A DNA stretch of 37,497 bases from contig JAFGFM010000035.1 in the NCBI GenBank assembly GCA_016931115.1, positions 1 to 37,497 of the forward strand. Reading direction: 5' to 3'. The notes beneath the pieces were generated by a model. It did not search any database. It worked only from the letters and a program-made list of their open reading frames with translations, and was not told the DNA's origin. The translations under genes and the position numbers were made by a program. Numbering within the stretch: position 1 is the stretch's first letter; every line of letters starts with the position of its first letter. The stretch comes from Deltaproteobacteria bacterium. GTDB taxonomy: Bacteria > Desulfobacterota > DSM-4660 > Desulfatiglandales > HGW-15. Positions 624 to 9,698 of the stretch are shown piece by piece.

Positions 624-1202
624 ATGACTGTGATGGATAACGACACAATAAAATCGATACTGGCCCGCCGGAGTTATAAGGCCTTTGATAGCAGGCCTTT
701 CAGTGAGGATATCCTTGAAACGATTATTGAAGCAGGGAAATACGCACCGACTGGCAGGAACAGACAGGCCTGGCATTTTACAGTTGTTAAGTCTGAAGAT
801 GGCAAAAAGATGTATAAAGAGGCGCTTACTGATTTTATGATAAACGGTGGAGGTCCAAAAGTAGCGCCGCCACCTGTTCCGCCAAATATAATCGTAAAGC
901 CTGAACCTGAGTTCAGAGGTGCACCAGTACTGATTCTTGTTTCAGGTCCAGCTTCAGATGATCTCGTTCGCATAGACTGTGCACTGGCTATGGGAAATAT
1001 GTTTATCGCTGCCGCCTCTTTTGGGGTGATGTCAGGATGGACACATACCACTGTCAGGGACCTTTTTCCGGATCCTGCTGTAAAGAAAAAATTTAAAATT
1101 CCTGATGGTAACGATGTATATGCTGCTGCTTTTTTTGGTTATCCACTGGGTGAACCTAAAGATCGTGGTCCCAGGAAAGAGGGAACAGTTACGGTTGTTT
1201 AA
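624..1202 (+). CDS. Nitroreductase family FMN oxidoreductase
   Basis: A 192-residue protein of the nitroreductase superfamily, FMN enzymes that use NAD(P)H to reduce nitro groups, quinones or other electron acceptors. The N-terminal ARRSYKAFDSRPF segment and the following APTGRNRQAWHF are the family's FMN-phosphate and isoalloxazine contacts. A central DCALAMGNMFIAAASFGVMSGW helix region and a C-terminal FFGYPLG strand also fit. A second ATG lies three codons in (633); a purine-rich GAGGG stretch stands just before 624, so the first start was kept. A proline-rich insert (PPPVPP) at about residues 77-82 lies where family members vary most. It appears to be a single gene, followed by the heptad array. 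Substrate cannot be deduced. Confidence 0.9.
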   Translation: MTVMDNDTIKSILARRSYKAFDSRPFSEDILETIIEAGKYAPTGRNRQAWHFTVVKSEDGKKMYKEALTDFMINGGGPKVAPPPVPPNIIVKPEPEFRGAPVLILVSGPASDDLVRIDCALAMGNMFIAAASFGVMSGWTHTTVRDLFPDPAVKKKFKIPDGNDVYAAAFFGYPLGEPKDRGPRKEGTVTVV

Positions 1203-1207
1203 CCTTC

Positions 1208-1410
1208 AGGCTATAGGCTATAGACTGTAGGCTGTAGGTAACAGGTAATAGGTGATAGGTTGTAGACTGTAGACTGTAGACTGTAGGCTGTAGGCTAAAG
1301 GCTAAAGCCTAAAGCCTAAAGCCTAAAGCCTAAAGCCTAAAGCCTAAAGCCTAAAGACTAAAGACTAAAGACTAAAGACTAAAGACTAAAGACTATAGAC
1401 TATAGCCTGA
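1208..1410. repeat. Tandem array of 29 in-register 7-bp units
   Basis: Reading from 1208 in steps of seven gives 29 consecutive units without one phase break. The consensus is roughly AGRCTRW: AGGCTAT, AGACTGT, AGGCTGT, AGGTAAT and AGGTGAT early on, then AGGCTAA, seven AGCCTAA, five AGACTAA, two AGACTAT and a final AGCCTGA. Blocks of identical units sit next to each other, as expected from slippage. The unit length is not a multiple of three and the array is not coding. The same units recur at 4003-4030 and 5950-6012. This fills most of the spacer between the nitroreductase and the DUF3795 gene. Confidence 0.95.
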
Positions 1411-1472
1411 TATTTACATTACCACATAAAAAGATCGTTAAGATAAGCATTCTTAAAGGAGGAGGAAAAAAT

Positions 1473-2162
1473 ATGGCTTTACATAATAGCAGTAAAATAG
1501 GTCGAAGAATGTTTGTTAAAGGTCTTGCCGGTGCAGCTGTTTGCTGTGCCTGCTGTTCACTGGATCGCCTGGCAGCCTCAAAAGAAATTAAAGTACAGGG
1601 TGGTGAGGCCAAGGCACATCTGGCAGCCGCATGCGGGACATATTGCGGAGCCTGCCCTGCTTACCTCAATAAGCATGGTGGAGTTGCAGAGAATTATCCA
1701 TCCAGACCGGTAAATGCCAGTATTGACAGTTTCGTCGCTATGATGGAGACCTTACAATGCGACGGCTGTCTGAGCGGCGGTACACTTGCCGGTCATTGCC
1801 AGAACTGCAGCATAAGCCGATGCGCAGCAAACACACAGAATAACGATCGTTGTTCTGAGTGCACACAGTTACCCTGCTATCGTATTACCAATTTAATCAA
1901 CCAGGGCAACTATCCGCACCGTGACGAATATCTGCCAAACCTTGCAAAAATTCATGAAATGGGCCTTCAGGAATGGGCTATATACGAAGAAGAGCGCTGG
2001 AGTTGCCCGCAGTGCGGCGGTGCTATAAGCTGGTATGATACCCAGTGTACCGGATGCGGGGCCACAAGATCAAAGGACTTGTTTACCCTGTTTGAAGAAG
2101 AACCAACCATCCCGGATAAAAAGGTCTCTCTGCAGCCAGTTTTGAACCTGCTCCTGGAATGA
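1473..2162 (+). CDS. Tat-signal DUF3795 domain protein with C-terminal zinc ribbon
   Basis: 229 residues; a strong AAAGGAGGAGG ribosome-binding site stands before the ATG. The N-terminus has a twin-arginine leader (GRRMFVKGLAGAA, about residues 11-23) followed by a cysteine-rich CCACCS stretch. The body starts with ACGTYCGACPAYLNKHGG and continues with CDGCLSGG, HCQNCSISRC and CSECTQLPC, the cysteine pattern of DUF3795, a family of unknown function presumed to bind metal or an Fe-S cluster. A separate zinc ribbon (CPQCGG...CTGCGA) lies near residues 173-192. Tat export would mean the cofactor is loaded in the cytoplasm before transport. The next gene is also Tat-type, so the two may act together at the outer face of the membrane, but no reaction can be named. 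Confidence 0.85.
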   Translation: MALHNSSKIGRRMFVKGLAGAAVCCACCSLDRLAASKEIKVQGGEAKAHLAAACGTYCGACPAYLNKHGGVAENYPSRPVNASIDSFVAMMETLQCDGCLSGGTLAGHCQNCSISRCAANTQNNDRCSECTQLPCYRITNLINQGNYPHRDEYLPNLAKIHEMGLQEWAIYEEERWSCPQCGGAISWYDTQCTGCGATRSKDLFTLFEEEPTIPDKKVSLQPVLNLLLE

Positions 2163-2354
2163 ACCTCCCCGCTGCAAGGCAGCCGGGAATTAAACCTTTG
2201 CCCGCCTCTGGCGTACTAAATAATTTTATTGCTTCAACATTGGTCATTATTTTCGGAAATAAAAGGCGGAGCGTCAATAAAGGATGTTACCACTGTAGTA
2301 GTGGGAGCAAGAAAAGAAGGTGAAAAATAATTCTAAATCAAAGGAGGACTTTTT

Positions 2355-3242
2355 ATGGAAACCAGATTTACACGACGTGAAGTATTGGGATTGGTAGGAG
2401 CCGGTGCGGCAGTTTTAGGGGCATCCAGCCTTGCAAGTTCCGCAACTAAAAACGAAGCCACACCTGCGCAGCAGGAGGAACAGGCTATGACCCCTTTAGA
2501 GAAATTCAATAAATACGGTGAGGATCTCGAATATCACCTGATGCTTCGAACATCTCCTATTGCAGCCAAGATGCTTGTAAGTGAATCCGATATCCCTGTA
2601 GGGGCATTCAGGCCAAAAAAGGAGCGTGGATATCATTTTGCCCAGTGTCAGGCATTTGCCCTCTCCCGCAGGGACGGGGTCACGATCGCCATGCTGAAGG
2701 AAGATCACTGGTGTCCGGCAGCCCCCCTTGCCTATGGAAATGTGCCTCCGAACCAGCAGAGCCAGGACTATGACTGCTTTCCATATGGGAAATATGTTGG
2801 TATTGTCACAGCCCCGTTGAAAACCGCGAGTTTTATACCCGATGTGGTTATCATCTGGTCCAACAACGCCCAGTTGAGGTCACTTATCCTCTCCATGGAC
2901 AGAAAGGATAGCTCTCAAATAAAGAGCTGTTTTCTTCCCCCTTCCTGTTCATATTCCGTGGTCAATCCCATACAGGATGGTAACTACTGGGTTGTACTGC
3001 CTGACCCGGGAGAGTATGAAAGGGGATTAGGAACGGAAGACGAGATGATGTTCTCTGCCCCGGGTGCCAGGATGGAGAGCCTTATTTCCGGGTTGAGAAA
3101 GGGTGAAAAAGGATATTTTGCCTATCGTCATCATCATCCCTACATTCGGCCAAACTTTCCAAGACCCGATTTCTACAGGCAGTCATTTAAATCCTGGGGT
3201 CTGGATGCCGATGATACACTTGATTGGCCGGAATATAAATAG
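2355..3242 (+). CDS. Tat-signal DUF169 family protein
   Basis: 295 residues with an AAAGGAGG site before the ATG. Residues 4-30 are a Tat leader (TRREVLGLVGAGAAVLGASSL). The mature part begins PLEKFNKYGEDLEYHLMLRTSPIAAKML, the usual opening of DUF169 (COG2043, uncharacterised), followed by the conserved CQAFALSRRDG block and an HWCPAAPLAYG cysteine motif. The family is normally cytoplasmic, so a Tat leader is notable. A histidine run (YRHHHPYIRP) lies near the C-terminus. It is separated by about 190 bp from the DUF3795 gene, in the same direction, and both genes carry the same kind of leader. A rho-independent terminator follows. Function unknown. Confidence 0.85.
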   Translation: METRFTRREVLGLVGAGAAVLGASSLASSATKNEATPAQQEEQAMTPLEKFNKYGEDLEYHLMLRTSPIAAKMLVSESDIPVGAFRPKKERGYHFAQCQAFALSRRDGVTIAMLKEDHWCPAAPLAYGNVPPNQQSQDYDCFPYGKYVGIVTAPLKTASFIPDVVIIWSNNAQLRSLILSMDRKDSSQIKSCFLPPSCSYSVVNPIQDGNYWVVLPDPGEYERGLGTEDEMMFSAPGARMESLISGLRKGEKGYFAYRHHHPYIRPNFPRPDFYRQSFKSWGLDADDTLDWPEYK

Positions 3243-3310
3243 CGTATAGAAACATGACGTTAGAGGTACTCCATAAGCAGCTGAGTAACTATGTAATACA
3301 CTGATACCAG

Positions 3311-3352
3311 GGCGGTTAAAGGTTATTATCTTTAATCGCCTTGCTTTTTTTT
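3311..3352 (+). terminator. Rho-independent terminator after DUF169 gene
   Basis: GGCGGTTAAAG and CTTTAATCGCC form an 11-bp stem with one G-T wobble and an 8-base loop, followed by TTGC and eight T residues. It lies about 70 bp after the DUF169 stop codon. Confidence 0.85.
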
Positions 3353-3611: not shown

Positions 3612-4004
3612 ATGAAAAGAGGTCTTACGCTTGTGCTTGTGGTTGGCATCTTTCTGGTTACTTGCACCACATTGCTCGCGATCGAAACAGATAGCGCCAT
3701 ACATGATAGCAGCTCTGCATCCGGCATGGTAAGAGCCATTAATCCTGAATGGGGAAATATTGATACTGACTTTATGTATCCTGACCTGGAAAGGCTTGGG
3801 ATCACAAAAGGGAACATGTTCACGGTTCAATTCGAAGATAAAAGTTTCAAGGTAATAATGGCAACCACTTATGATGATGTACAACAAGGAGAATGGGTAG
3901 CTTTTATTACTCCCGATGGTTTTCTAAGGATTGCCAGAAATGTGGAGAGCGCGGTTGATCTGCTTGGATGTAAGCCGGGGGATAGGATTGTGATAAAAAA
4001 TTAG
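3612..4004 (+). CDS. Exported protein resembling the C-terminal domain of SAM hydroxide adenosyltransferase
   Basis: 130 residues from the ATG at 3612, which has GGAGG five bases upstream; the longer frame from 3501 would overlap the promoter. The first 22 or so residues (MKRGLTLVLVVGIFLVTCTTLLA) are a signal peptide. The mature part, from about GMVRAINPEWGNIDTDF to PGDRIVIKN, follows the beta-barrel C-terminal domain of the DUF62/SAM hydroxide adenosyltransferase family: the GNIDT start, a TFDD-like TTYDDVQQGE centre, and DGFLRIARNVESAVDLLGCKPGD. The N-terminal catalytic half of that family is absent, so the protein is unlikely to hydrolyse SAM by itself and may only bind a ligand. The TAG stop lies in the first unit of a heptad repeat. 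Confidence 0.7.
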   Translation: MKRGLTLVLVVGIFLVTCTTLLAIETDSAIHDSSSASGMVRAINPEWGNIDTDFMYPDLERLGITKGNMFTVQFEDKSFKVIMATTYDDVQQGEWVAFITPDGFLRIARNVESAVDLLGCKPGDRIVIKN

Positions 4005-4163: not shown

Positions 4164-4382
4164 ATGAGAACAGTTCTTTCTGTGAGTTTGCCCGAAAATC
4201 TGGCAAAGGATTTGAGTGACTTTGCCTGTGAAACAGGCCGTAACAAAAGCGATATTTTAAAGGATTCTCTTGTACGGTATATCTGGGACGCTAAACTGCG
4301 CAAGGCGCAGGAACTGTTTTATACAAAAGCCAAAGCAAAGGGCATAGTTACCGAGGAAGATATGTTGAGAGAGATCTCGTGA
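4164..4382 (+). CDS. Ribbon-helix-helix (CopG-like) antitoxin
   Basis: 72 residues from the ATG at 4164, chosen because AAAGGAGGTGTTC precedes it; a longer frame from 4116 would begin within the promoter. MRTVLSVSLPENLAKDLSDFACETGRNKSDILKDSLVRYI is a ribbon-helix-helix domain: the beta strand RTVLSVSLP inserts in the DNA major groove and the ETGRNKSD turn joins two helices. The rest of the chain would wrap the PIN toxin. Its TGA stop overlaps the toxin's GTG start, so the two are translationally coupled. It presumably represses the operator at 4126-4139. Confidence 0.87.
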   Translation: MRTVLSVSLPENLAKDLSDFACETGRNKSDILKDSLVRYIWDAKLRKAQELFYTKAKAKGIVTEEDMLREIS

Positions 4383-4783
4383 AAACGATCCTGGACACAA
4401 ACGTTCTGCTTTCTGCGTTTCTTACCGACGGTACATGCGCCCGCATCCTGAAACGGGCACGACAAAAGGATTTTTCATTCATACTCTGTGAACCGGTCTT
4501 ACTCGAAACAAAACGGCTGTTAAAAAACAAGTTCTCCCTTTCATCCAGGGATATCAAACTCTTTGTCTCCATACTTACTGAAGCTGCGGATGTGGTATAT
4601 CACCCTGCGGGAGTGCCTCCTTCTATATGTCGTGATCCGGATGATGATATCATCCTTGTCTGTGCTGCGGAAACAGAAAGCGATTTTCTTGTAACCGGAG
4701 ACAAAGACCTTCTGGTACTTAAGGCGTATCAAGGTGCCAAAATTATTGGTCCCAGGGATTTTGAACTTCTTTTCATGGATTAA
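4379..4783 (+). CDS. PIN-domain ribonuclease toxin
   Basis: 134 residues starting at GTG 4379, overlapping the antitoxin stop by four bases. The protein belongs to the PIN family of the COG1569/TIGR00305 type. The acidic residues expected of a metal-dependent ribonuclease are all present: D in ILDTNVLLSAFL (near residue 6), E in PVLLETKRLL, the DPDDD cluster in RDPDDDIILVCA, and D in VTGDKDLLVL. The catalytic set looks intact, so the module should be active. Known relatives cut RNA and stop translation; the target here cannot be predicted. The following membrane-protein gene starts two bases after the stop and may be co-transcribed. Confidence 0.87.
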   Translation: MKTILDTNVLLSAFLTDGTCARILKRARQKDFSFILCEPVLLETKRLLKNKFSLSSRDIKLFVSILTEAADVVYHPAGVPPSICRDPDDDIILVCAAETESDFLVTGDKDLLVLKAYQGAKIIGPRDFELLFMD

Positions 4784-7595: not shown

Positions 7596-9698
7596 ATGGC
7601 TGCACCAGGATTTGGCGGAAAATTATTGCTGGTTAATCTTACCAGTAAACAGGTAACAGCACTGGACACAGAAAAATATGAACAGTTCGGCGGAGGGCAT
7701 GGAATGGCCACTGCGCTTTTCTGGGATTATTGCGTAGCACCCGGAGAGTGGGATCTCCAGGACGCCTTTCACCCGAATAATATGGTTGCTATTATAACCG
7801 GTCCGGTAAGCGGGACAGGTGTGCCATGGGCAGCAAGGACAAGTGTTTCAGGATTATCACCCCAGTGTTATCCCATACAGTGGTTCGGCCACAGCAATTT
7901 CGGCGGCATGTTCGGTGCCTTTATGAAAATGGCCGGCTGGGACGGTGTGGCTGTCATTGGCAGGGCTGAGTCCCCGGTATACATCAATGTGGTGGATGAC
8001 AGGGTGACCATTGAAGATGCAAAGGAGCTGTGGGGTTTAACCACGTGGGAATGCCAGGAGGAGATATGGAAGAGATCCGGCATCCGATACGGCAAGGAGT
8101 GGCAGGAAATCGAAGACAGGTATACGCTTCAGAGACCGGCCATTGTAACCATAGGGCCAGCTGGCGAAAACATGACCAGGGTAGCTTCCCTTGTCCACGG
8201 AGGCGGAAGCGGTGCCGGGCAGGGAGGGTTCGGCGGGGTATTTGGCTCCAAGAACCTCAAGGCAATTGCCTTTCTTGGAACAAAGGGGATAAAAATAGCC
8301 GATCCAAAAGGATTGCAGGATGTAAGGGACTGGTATTACAAAAACTGGCCGGCCGGGGCACCCCCTTTTGCCGGCCAGGGGGTATCATCAGCGTGTATTG
8401 GCTGCGGGCAGGTAAGAAAGTGTCATAACCGGGACAGGGTACATGGCCAGGATTCGGATGGCTGCGCAGAGGCCGGATGGTTTTATCTTACACCCCAGGA
8501 TGCAAATGGGATGTCCGATGCAGAAAAATTCAGGATTAACGCTAAAGGCACAGACATTGTCCAGCAGCTCGGCATAAACGGTATGGAGACCTGTTTCATG
8601 GGCCCCCTGACATTTAAAACCGATCATAATCCCGGTTTCCCGATCCAGCCGGAAGTACCTGCCTATACAGCCCTTGGGTGGTATATGAAGAGGATGTATG
8701 ACATGGGGGTTATAGGCCCCGGTACAAAATATGACATGGCCCCTCTCAACATGAAAAAGTTCGCCACACAGGAGTTCATGGAGATCTACGGGATCGCCCT
8801 GGCAAACCGTTACGGGATAGGTGACCTGCTGGCCGAGGGAACAGCACGCATGGCGGATAAACTTGGAAGGACTGATGACTTTAACACCCTGGCCAGGCTG
8901 ACCAACTGGGGTTATGTGGATCACTGGTCCATGCCCGGGGTTGACTGGGCCTATGGAAACCTGATGGATTCAAGGGACATCAACAGCCATGATATAGACC
9001 TTGCAAACCCGGCAGTGGGTCTAATGGGTCTGGGGGGCGGCGGAAACAGCAAATGGTCATGCGAAGAGTTTGTAAAGATCCATGCAGAACGAACCACGCG
9101 CAATAACCCCTACTGGTTTGATTTCAGCTGGGAGGGTAAGCAGGCACACAAAACGGGAGTATTTTCAAGACACAAGGCGGAATTTGTCGCATGGCGCATG
9201 CATTACTGGACCTATTACAAGGAATCGGTTGGGTTCTGTGACTGGGGTTATACCAAACTGTTTGATGCAAACCACCCGAAAGGCTATGGCTATACCCCGG
9301 AGGCTGAACCAGCCTGGCTTAACGCAATCACCGGAAGGAAACACACCTTTGAGGATGGGCTTGAAATGGGAAGACGTGCCTGGAATCTGAAACGGGCAAT
9401 TTTTGCCCTCCAGGGCAGGCACAGAAAGATGGAAAAATTTAATGGCTACATGTACAGACCCGGTGCCTCCTATTGCGGATTTTACAACACAAAGCCTGTA
9501 TACGATGGGAAAAACTGGGAATGGAAGGACTGCAAAGAGCTCTACCTGACTGAAGAGGGTGTAGAACAGTGGAAGAGCTATTTCTATGAGATCGAAGGCT
9601 GGGATAAGGATTCGGGTTATCCGAAGAGGAAAACCCTCGAAGATCTTGGTCTGAAATATGCTGCTGATCTGCTTTCTAAAAAATTTGCTTCGGTATAG
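7596..9698 (+). CDS. Aldehyde:ferredoxin oxidoreductase family tungsten/molybdenum enzyme
   Basis: 700 residues from ATG 7596, preceded by AAAGGAG; an in-frame ATG at 7554 lacks a site. Members hold a W- or Mo-bis(pyranopterin) cofactor and a [4Fe-4S] cluster and oxidise aldehydes to acids with ferredoxin; the BamB branch acts in benzoyl-CoA reduction. The N-terminal domain shows FGGGHGMATALFWD, GPVSGTGVPWAARTSVSG and FGGMFGAFMKMAGWDGVAV, typical of the cofactor-binding beta barrel. Cluster ligands are probably C267, C270 and C276 (CIGCGQVRKC), with C548 in ESVGFC. The spacing between the second and third cysteines (five residues) differs from the usual three. No ferredoxin or cofactor genes lie nearby, so the electron partner must be encoded elsewhere. 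No export signal. Substrate unknown. Confidence 0.9.
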   Translation: MAAPGFGGKLLLVNLTSKQVTALDTEKYEQFGGGHGMATALFWDYCVAPGEWDLQDAFHPNNMVAIITGPVSGTGVPWAARTSVSGLSPQCYPIQWFGHSNFGGMFGAFMKMAGWDGVAVIGRAESPVYINVVDDRVTIEDAKELWGLTTWECQEEIWKRSGIRYGKEWQEIEDRYTLQRPAIVTIGPAGENMTRVASLVHGGGSGAGQGGFGGVFGSKNLKAIAFLGTKGIKIADPKGLQDVRDWYYKNWPAGAPPFAGQGVSSACIGCGQVRKCHNRDRVHGQDSDGCAEAGWFYLTPQDANGMSDAEKFRINAKGTDIVQQLGINGMETCFMGPLTFKTDHNPGFPIQPEVPAYTALGWYMKRMYDMGVIGPGTKYDMAPLNMKKFATQEFMEIYGIALANRYGIGDLLAEGTARMADKLGRTDDFNTLARLTNWGYVDHWSMPGVDWAYGNLMDSRDINSHDIDLANPAVGLMGLGGGGNSKWSCEEFVKIHAERTTRNNPYWFDFSWEGKQAHKTGVFSRHKAEFVAWRMHYWTYYKESVGFCDWGYTKLFDANHPKGYGYTPEAEPAWLNAITGRKHTFEDGLEMGRRAWNLKRAIFALQGRHRKMEKFNGYMYRPGASYCGFYNTKPVYDGKNWEWKDCKELYLTEEGVEQWKSYFYEIEGWDKDSGYPKRKTLEDLGLKYAADLLSKKFASV

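Follow-up and report, generated by a model that had tools for sequence, protein, structure and literature searches.

The proteins described here belong to two families, DUF3795 (PF12675) and DUF169 (PF02596, COG2043). In the sources searched, we found neither a described function for DUF3795 or DUF169 nor a solved relative that could be recognized by sequence. A Desulfovibrio DUF169 gene is listed among those that, when interrupted, confer high fitness with nitrate (PMC4001038). One gene of each family was found at positions 1473 to 3242 of a 37,497-nucleotide stretch of DNA from a Deltaproteobacteria bacterium (assembly GCA_016931115.1, contig JAFGFM010000035.1), referred to here as the window. 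Both proteins carry twin-arginine (Tat) leaders, and a sequence-only reading had proposed that, together with a neighbouring nitroreductase, they form a small periplasmic redox or metal-handling set. As judged from the sequences compared, the best reading is that the Tat-DUF3795 proteins would form an exported branch of a known uncharacterized family, one that is rare, stands alone in most cases and has spread laterally.

The ORF calls and Pfam searches confirmed both genes, their ribosome sites and their neighbouring position (Table 1). The first gene matched PF12675 at 1473-2159 (E-value 2e-11; 44.7 bits, cut-off 22.6), and the second matched PF02596 at 2355-3239 (2.8e-27; 96.4 bits against a cut-off of 27) in two stretches that cover the whole DUF169 domain. 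The genes are separated by 192 bp, and gaps of 270 and 369 bp lie upstream of DUF3795 and downstream of DUF169, respectively. Since these gaps are wide and the 270-bp one consists mostly of a heptanucleotide repeat array, a tight operon is not evident. The array (1208-1408), between the nitroreductase and DUF3795 genes, is made of about 29 copies of 7-bp tandem units, AGGCTGT and then CTAAAGC. Words resembling these repeats were seen by eye near the corresponding locus of G001, the one genome of the same genus that was searched (L048, 7700-7830). Terminator-like sites in the region numbered three against 3.2 expected in shuffles, a number not above chance.

Table 1. Features of the DUF3795-DUF169 region, in window coordinates.
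Feature	Position	Strand	Basis and remarks
Nitroreductase-family protein (PF00881), without export leader	624..1202	+	Pfam; 89% DNA identity to G001 counterpart
Upstream region with TTAAGATAAGCATTCTTAAAG (1438-1458) and ribosome site	1410..1472	+	blastn; also precedes some Tat-DUF3795 genes in other phyla
Tat-DUF3795 gene	1473..2162	+	229 aa, ATG start, AGGAGG-type ribosome site
Predicted DUF3795 twin-arginine leader, GRRMFVKGLAG plus cysteine-rich hydrophobic stretch VCCACC	1473..1583	+	sequence, alignment; end approximate
DUF3795 domain, cysteines CGxYCGACP / CDGC / CxxC / CxxC....C	1623..1889	+	Pfam placement, invariant columns
C-terminal zinc ribbon W-x-C-x2-C-x10-C-x2-C	1998..2057	+	sequence, invariant columns; same cysteines in leaderless relatives
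Tat-DUF169 gene	2355..3242	+	295 aa, ATG start, AGGAGG-type ribosome site
Predicted DUF169 twin-arginine leader FTRREVLGLVGAGAAVLGASS plus linker	2355..2486	+	sequence, alignment; end approximate; similar leaders in 20-row clade
Intrinsic-terminator-like stem, 16 pairs plus T tract, 3' of DUF169	3308..3343	+	number of such sites in region not above chance

Other genes of the window were also noted. The contig start truncates the gene of a carboxylesterase family protein, of which the C-terminal end is left (1-508). At 3612-4004 a signal-like N-terminus precedes a lone SAM hydroxide adenosyltransferase C-terminal domain (PF20257, 1e-9), and this SAM_HAT_C-like gene was also seen by eye in the G001 locus (L048, 7319-7711). 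Beside the DUF169 region, at 4164-4783, a candidate pair of ribbon-helix-helix antitoxin and PIN-domain toxin was recognized by eye.

The leaders read ..KIGRRMFVKGLAGAAVCCACCSLDRLAAS.. in the DUF3795 protein and ..FTRREVLGLVGAGAAVLGASSLASS.. in the DUF169 protein. In the latter the RRx[FLIMV]-type motif is present as TRREVLGLVGAG with a hydrophobic stretch, and similar leaders occur across its clade. Among 33 Tat-DUF3795 copies with a readable N-terminal region the motif is kept in 31, the exceptions being L075, where RS replaces RR, and L139 from genome G076; such retention argues that the twin arginine is not there by chance. An N-terminal RR leader was found in none of 30 other DUF3795 rows, the starts of which came from a simple ORF caller, and one of them has RR inside the domain. 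TatC is encoded in the genome of the window (G000:C22, 4.9e-79). The leaders recognized earlier on both proteins were thereby corroborated, and they are very likely export signals. The accompanying description of both families as mainly cytoplasmic needs qualifying, as Tat leaders are present on three of the five DUF3795 matches of this genome (C52, C97 and C81) and on four of its nine DUF169 genes; the two families meet in the window only. Inspection by eye of the Tat-DUF3795 leaders revealed no clear lipobox, and a lipoprotein signal was rejected on this ground. As a separate observation by eye, the hydrophobic part of the leader (1536-1560 in the window) contains cysteines spaced C-x-C in 17 of the 33 copies and C-x2-C in seven more.

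Fourteen cysteines, the four of the ribbon included, are invariant in all 53 rows, exported and leaderless, of a DUF3795 alignment. Besides the window's own, 12 of 65 rows were omitted from it, namely fusion proteins, fragments, distant members of short length and the G001 copy with its deletion. The invariant columns preserve the four-cysteine CxxC...CxxC spacing of a zinc ribbon or RanBP2-like finger. Thus, the zinc ribbon assigned to the DUF3795 protein by the sequence-only reading is real, but it is not an addition of this protein, being common to long DUF3795 proteins. Foldseek gave weak matches for DUF3795, and VIA-align gave none with a Z of 2 or more. For DUF169, a structural model of pLDDT 93.6 and pTM 0.88 yielded a best Foldseek match of E 0.028 with a TM of about 0.2, and a best VIA-align match to cystathionine-lyase-type domains (Z 5.3, rmsd 3.5, 100 aligned) that lies within the background of the tool; missing matches in either list do not show a new fold. 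Sequence searches of solved structures with the two families returned one and five rows at chance level (E 0.29 and worse). One cysteine is invariant and two are nearly so in 40 DUF169 rows, an alignment that leaves out L008 and six of 47 rows lacking an ATG start or a stop codon. By our reading of the alignment and the secondary structure of the model, the DUF169 protein may be built of two similar halves, a cysteine opening the equivalent helix of each (C54 and C154), plus C76. Both proteins look like cysteine-metal proteins.

The redox or metal-handling character proposed before is consistent with these cysteines; the joint periplasmic set is not supported. The nitroreductase begins with MTVMDNDTIKSILARRSYKAF, where no hydrophobic leader was seen by eye, and a set that includes it was rejected for lack of a leader. 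A conserved pair of Tat genes was rejected as well: among the Tat-DUF3795 loci examined no second adjacency to a Tat-DUF169 gene was found, and G001 has no ortholog of the window DUF169. In spite of this, DUF169 genes lie within 2 kb of four of the 26 Tat-DUF3795 loci from 17 DUF169-bearing genomes, against 0.185 expected (Poisson P about 4e-5), or at three loci against 0.177 (P about 8e-4) when the window is omitted, the expectation being based on hand-entered DUF169 counts with split matches merged and on genome sizes, with contig ends ignored and the fused L060 and L062 and the deleted L048 counted. Besides the window, the loci are L079, with divergent genes; L086 (G076:C98), with DUF169 on the same strand 128 bp downstream; and G654:C52, where a Tat-FmdE gene lies in between. 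These three are Acidobacteria loci and their DUF169 partners are leaderless; Pfam confirmed the family at L079 and L086, and PF02596 places the one of G654. In a DUF169 tree of 66 rows most Tat leaders fall into two groups, where 8 of 10 rows and 16 of 20 carry one according to a simple script rule that mislabelled at least one row (L122, called leaderless) and with the start of L158 unsure. This distribution suggests that the exported state recurs within the family.

The excess of nearby DUF169 genes, and the position of the G654 DUF169 in the same 20-row branch as that of the window, would be in line with a loose cooperation of the two proteins, for instance in metal or thiol transfer, with a DUF169 partner that varies in subtype and export. 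However, leaderless partners at the three other loci would place the two proteins in different compartments, and those of L079 and L086 belong to other DUF169 branches. Moreover, no DUF169 was found in 10 of 22 named genomes with a DUF3795 relative, which are bins of completeness not given, a count from which nine of the 32 loci were excluded (L064, L067, L078 and L083 from isolates already included; L085 and L088-L091 as fragments or distant) and which includes the genome of L081, where the leader is cut off. Nor did the flanks, up to 1.5 kb, contain a DUF169 gene at any of 27 loci from the same family and order that encode leaderless DUF3795 proteins, regardless of DUF169 elsewhere in the genome. 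We regard such cooperation as unlikely; the DUF3795-DUF169 link may be a weak, loose tie, and it is not a conserved exported pair.

Comparison with G001 bears on how the two genes came together. In G001 the nitroreductase, SAM_HAT_C-like and DUF3795 genes of the window all have counterparts, but these are arranged in a different order. Its DUF3795 counterpart is internally deleted, with 113 aa left and 73% identity over the first 70 aa, and two further Tat-DUF3795 genes are intact. Eight of the nine DUF169 proteins of the window's genome have G001 counterparts of 90-96% identity; that of the window alone has no ortholog and finds there a 52% paralog only. Its closest relatives are L189, from an Acidobacteria bin (93% over 203 aa, on a 4.7-kb contig), and L190 (88% over 234 aa), from G006, which belongs to the same family as the window's genome. 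Contig ends truncate both, and the Tat-DUF3795 genes of these two genomes sit on other contigs. The absence of a G001 ortholog and the 93% match in an Acidobacteria bin argue for separate acquisition. The same is argued by the window DUF3795 domain, which is nearer to a domain fused to an oxidoreductase in L060 (75% identity) than to the paralogs of its own genus (56-57% or 42%). Against independence, the proximity of DUF169 above expectation implies that the adjacency may carry meaning. Gene neighbours vary across 22 Tat-DUF3795 loci examined by eye; some of them recur, so that the contexts are not wholly random. In the genus of the window, one Tat-DUF3795 copy is preceded by C_GCAxxG_C_C and SDR genes in each of the two genomes, another copy has mscL as a neighbour, and a similar large oxidoreductase subunit was seen by eye beside two Acidobacteria copies. 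On balance we lean, with modest confidence, towards two separately acquired genes for putative Tat-exported metalloproteins that became incidentally adjacent by local gene shuffling.

The window DUF3795 domain finds its nearest relatives (75% and 71%) at the C-terminus of Gfo/Idh/MocA-type oxidoreductases encoded in two bins of Sedimentisphaerales (Planctomycetota). The gene in L062 (8519-10489) is complete and encodes 656 aa with GFO_IDH_MocA and DUF3795 domains and a twin-arginine leader, for which the Pfam TAT_signal match is below the cut-off. That in L060 (1-1374) is truncated by the contig start, its N-terminus missing, and is 84% identical to L062 over 395 columns. This fusion is the best functional clue, suggesting that the module can serve an exported oxidoreductase.

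Molybdenum or tungsten enzymes were considered in the same context, in the sense that both families could be accessory to exported hydroxylase metabolism with these metals; the two genes of the window would then be left over from a locus of this kind. In G654, locus L111 (5139-10999) encodes Tat-DUF3795, Tat-FmdE, DUF169 and a Tat [2Fe-2S] protein, followed by ORFs that by eye resemble the medium and large subunits of xanthine-dehydrogenase-like (molybdenum hydroxylase) enzymes; this is perhaps an exported molybdenum enzyme locus. The same type of large subunit adjoins Tat-DUF3795 in G081 and G580 by eye, a MoaF-domain protein lies two genes from Tat-DUF169 in G070, and the window itself has an AFOR_N-domain (aldehyde ferredoxin oxidoreductase) gene at 7596-9698. 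However, the three DUF3795 cases all come from the Acidobacteria sample, and at most of the 22 loci inspected by eye a gene of this type is missing from the neighbourhood. AFOR_N genes are common, with 17 matches in the window's genome and 2 to 23 in 11 other genomes searched, so their proximity is expected. This accessory role appears improbable. An enrichment of AFOR_N near DUF169 was likewise rejected, as at least three within a few kb by eye are about what abundance predicts. The Tat [2Fe-2S] protein of L111 also matches a C2H2 zinc finger weakly.

Other neighbours were recorded beside DUF169. Five SnoaL_4 proteins within about 2.5 kb, counted by eye against a hand estimate of 1 to 2, are a lead. 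SnoaL_4 proteins are near neighbours of Tat-DUF169 genes in L145 (1640-5079), L124 (4719-8519, also with a MoaF-domain protein) and L131 (818-2724), two with twin-arginine leaders and one apparently membrane-anchored. DsrE-type proteins with a signal-like N-terminus adjoin Tat-DUF169 in two Acidobacteria bins (L126, 5406-5852, by Pfam; L153, 4322-4756, by eye).

The relatives of each protein are scattered among distantly related anaerobic bacteria. Scanning a species-genome collection with two peptide patterns, we obtained 32 Tat-DUF3795-related loci. At E 1e-30 or better, matches were found in 4 of 395 (one of the four beginning past the leader), 8 of 396 and 1 of 392 genomes, or 0.3-2% in three phylum samples. 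The centre genomes of these samples were included deliberately, and within each genome only part of the first-look candidates was scored, so that the counts may be low. The window protein falls in a 27-row Tat clade (SH-aLRT 100), apart from the leaderless clades, in which Bacteroidota, Planctomycetota, Spirochaetota, Calditrichota and Acidobacteriota mix with the window's own lineage; its members come from six phyla and are 48-75% identical to the window protein. The member from the window's family is in the Deltaproteobacteria bin G006 (L061). A second Tat clade of five rows (SH-aLRT 91) joins Acidobacteriota and the window's genus. The G006 protein (L049, 3892-5076, the same as L061) is extended to 394 aa by what by eye appears to be a duplicated C-terminal domain without Pfam match.

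Likeness between distant copies extends upstream of the gene. The blastn alignments continue upstream of the start codon for 44-63 bp in the G001 locus, in G006, and in one copy from Sedimentisphaerales and two from Prolixibacteraceae; by eye, the likeness is also present in a Bacteroidetes copy (L075) and, in part, in three more of the 20 aligned. Shuffles of the window yielded no copy of the upstream motif. A regulon operator was rejected: at up to three mismatches the motif has one match in its own genome, and so has the backward control pattern. No conserved 3' flank, integron-like or other, was seen by eye in 22 downstream flanks.

Many of these genomes are metagenome bins of one project, and mis-binning can mimic lateral transfer. 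The spread across phyla could then be largely an artefact within one metagenome, of a family confined mainly to one or two lineages. Seventeen of the 32 loci have 'Zod' in the isolate name, which we take to denote the sulfidic Zodletone spring, two more have 'Zgenome', and many are on short contigs. However, bins with other names (Go_SlDig, ADurb, AS06, Reactor, USDV, nzgw75 and Ch23) contain Tat members too, on contigs as long as 291 kb, and the divergence of main-clade relatives from the window protein is 25-52%. Mis-binning as the main explanation appears unlikely. Our literature searches found no text joining Zodletone with twin-arginine, or at least two of Tat signal, FmdE and DUF169. That the leaders are uncleaved membrane anchors, with the domains facing another compartment than assumed, would fit their C-x-C and C-x2-C pairs without clear lipobox but is improbable given the RRxF-type motif conserved across phyla and the presence of TatC.

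From the leaders, the conserved cysteines, the rare and scattered occurrence and the fusion, we infer the following scheme. The DUF3795 chain would bind metal and fold in the cytoplasm, zinc most likely occupying the C-terminal ribbon, and the cysteines of the DUF3795 domain would hold zinc or an iron-sulfur cluster. The folded protein would then be exported by Tat and act in the periplasm as an independent metal or thiol module able to serve an exported oxidoreductase. Tat-DUF169 would belong to a different exported branch, which has a three-cysteine site of its own. The specific role of a metal or thiol module that works for exported redox enzymes is put forward tentatively. Equally speculative is a broader picture of Tat-DUF3795 as a single-gene, mobile, multi-cysteine trait moving among at least six phyla in anoxic communities, which sometimes carries about 60 bp of upstream sequence and plugs into exported oxidoreductases, in some cases by fusion. 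An exported branch that crosses phyla, with 14 cysteines and an oxidoreductase fusion, offers a concrete and testable handle on the function of the domain, and the finding that the two adjacent genes do not form a conserved exported pair guards against a false operon inference.

Among known systems, the Gfo/Idh/MocA-DUF3795 fusions of L062 and L060 have the DUF3795-ribbon part closest to the window domain (71-75%); the window protein differs from them in having no oxidoreductase part, and its leader resembles those of stand-alone members. The leaderless DUF3795 proteins share with it the domain and the invariant cysteines, C-terminal ribbon included, but lack the twin-arginine leader, form separate clades and are about 25-30% identical to it. 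The spacing of the ribbon is similar to the RanBP2-type consensus, and most of the top Foldseek matches are RanBP2/NZF-type zinc fingers, although as structural matches they are weak (E 1.3 or worse). Finally, the window DUF169 protein shares the three conserved cysteines of DUF169/COG2043 and differs in belonging to a branch in which most members (16 of 20 rows so labelled) are Tat-led.
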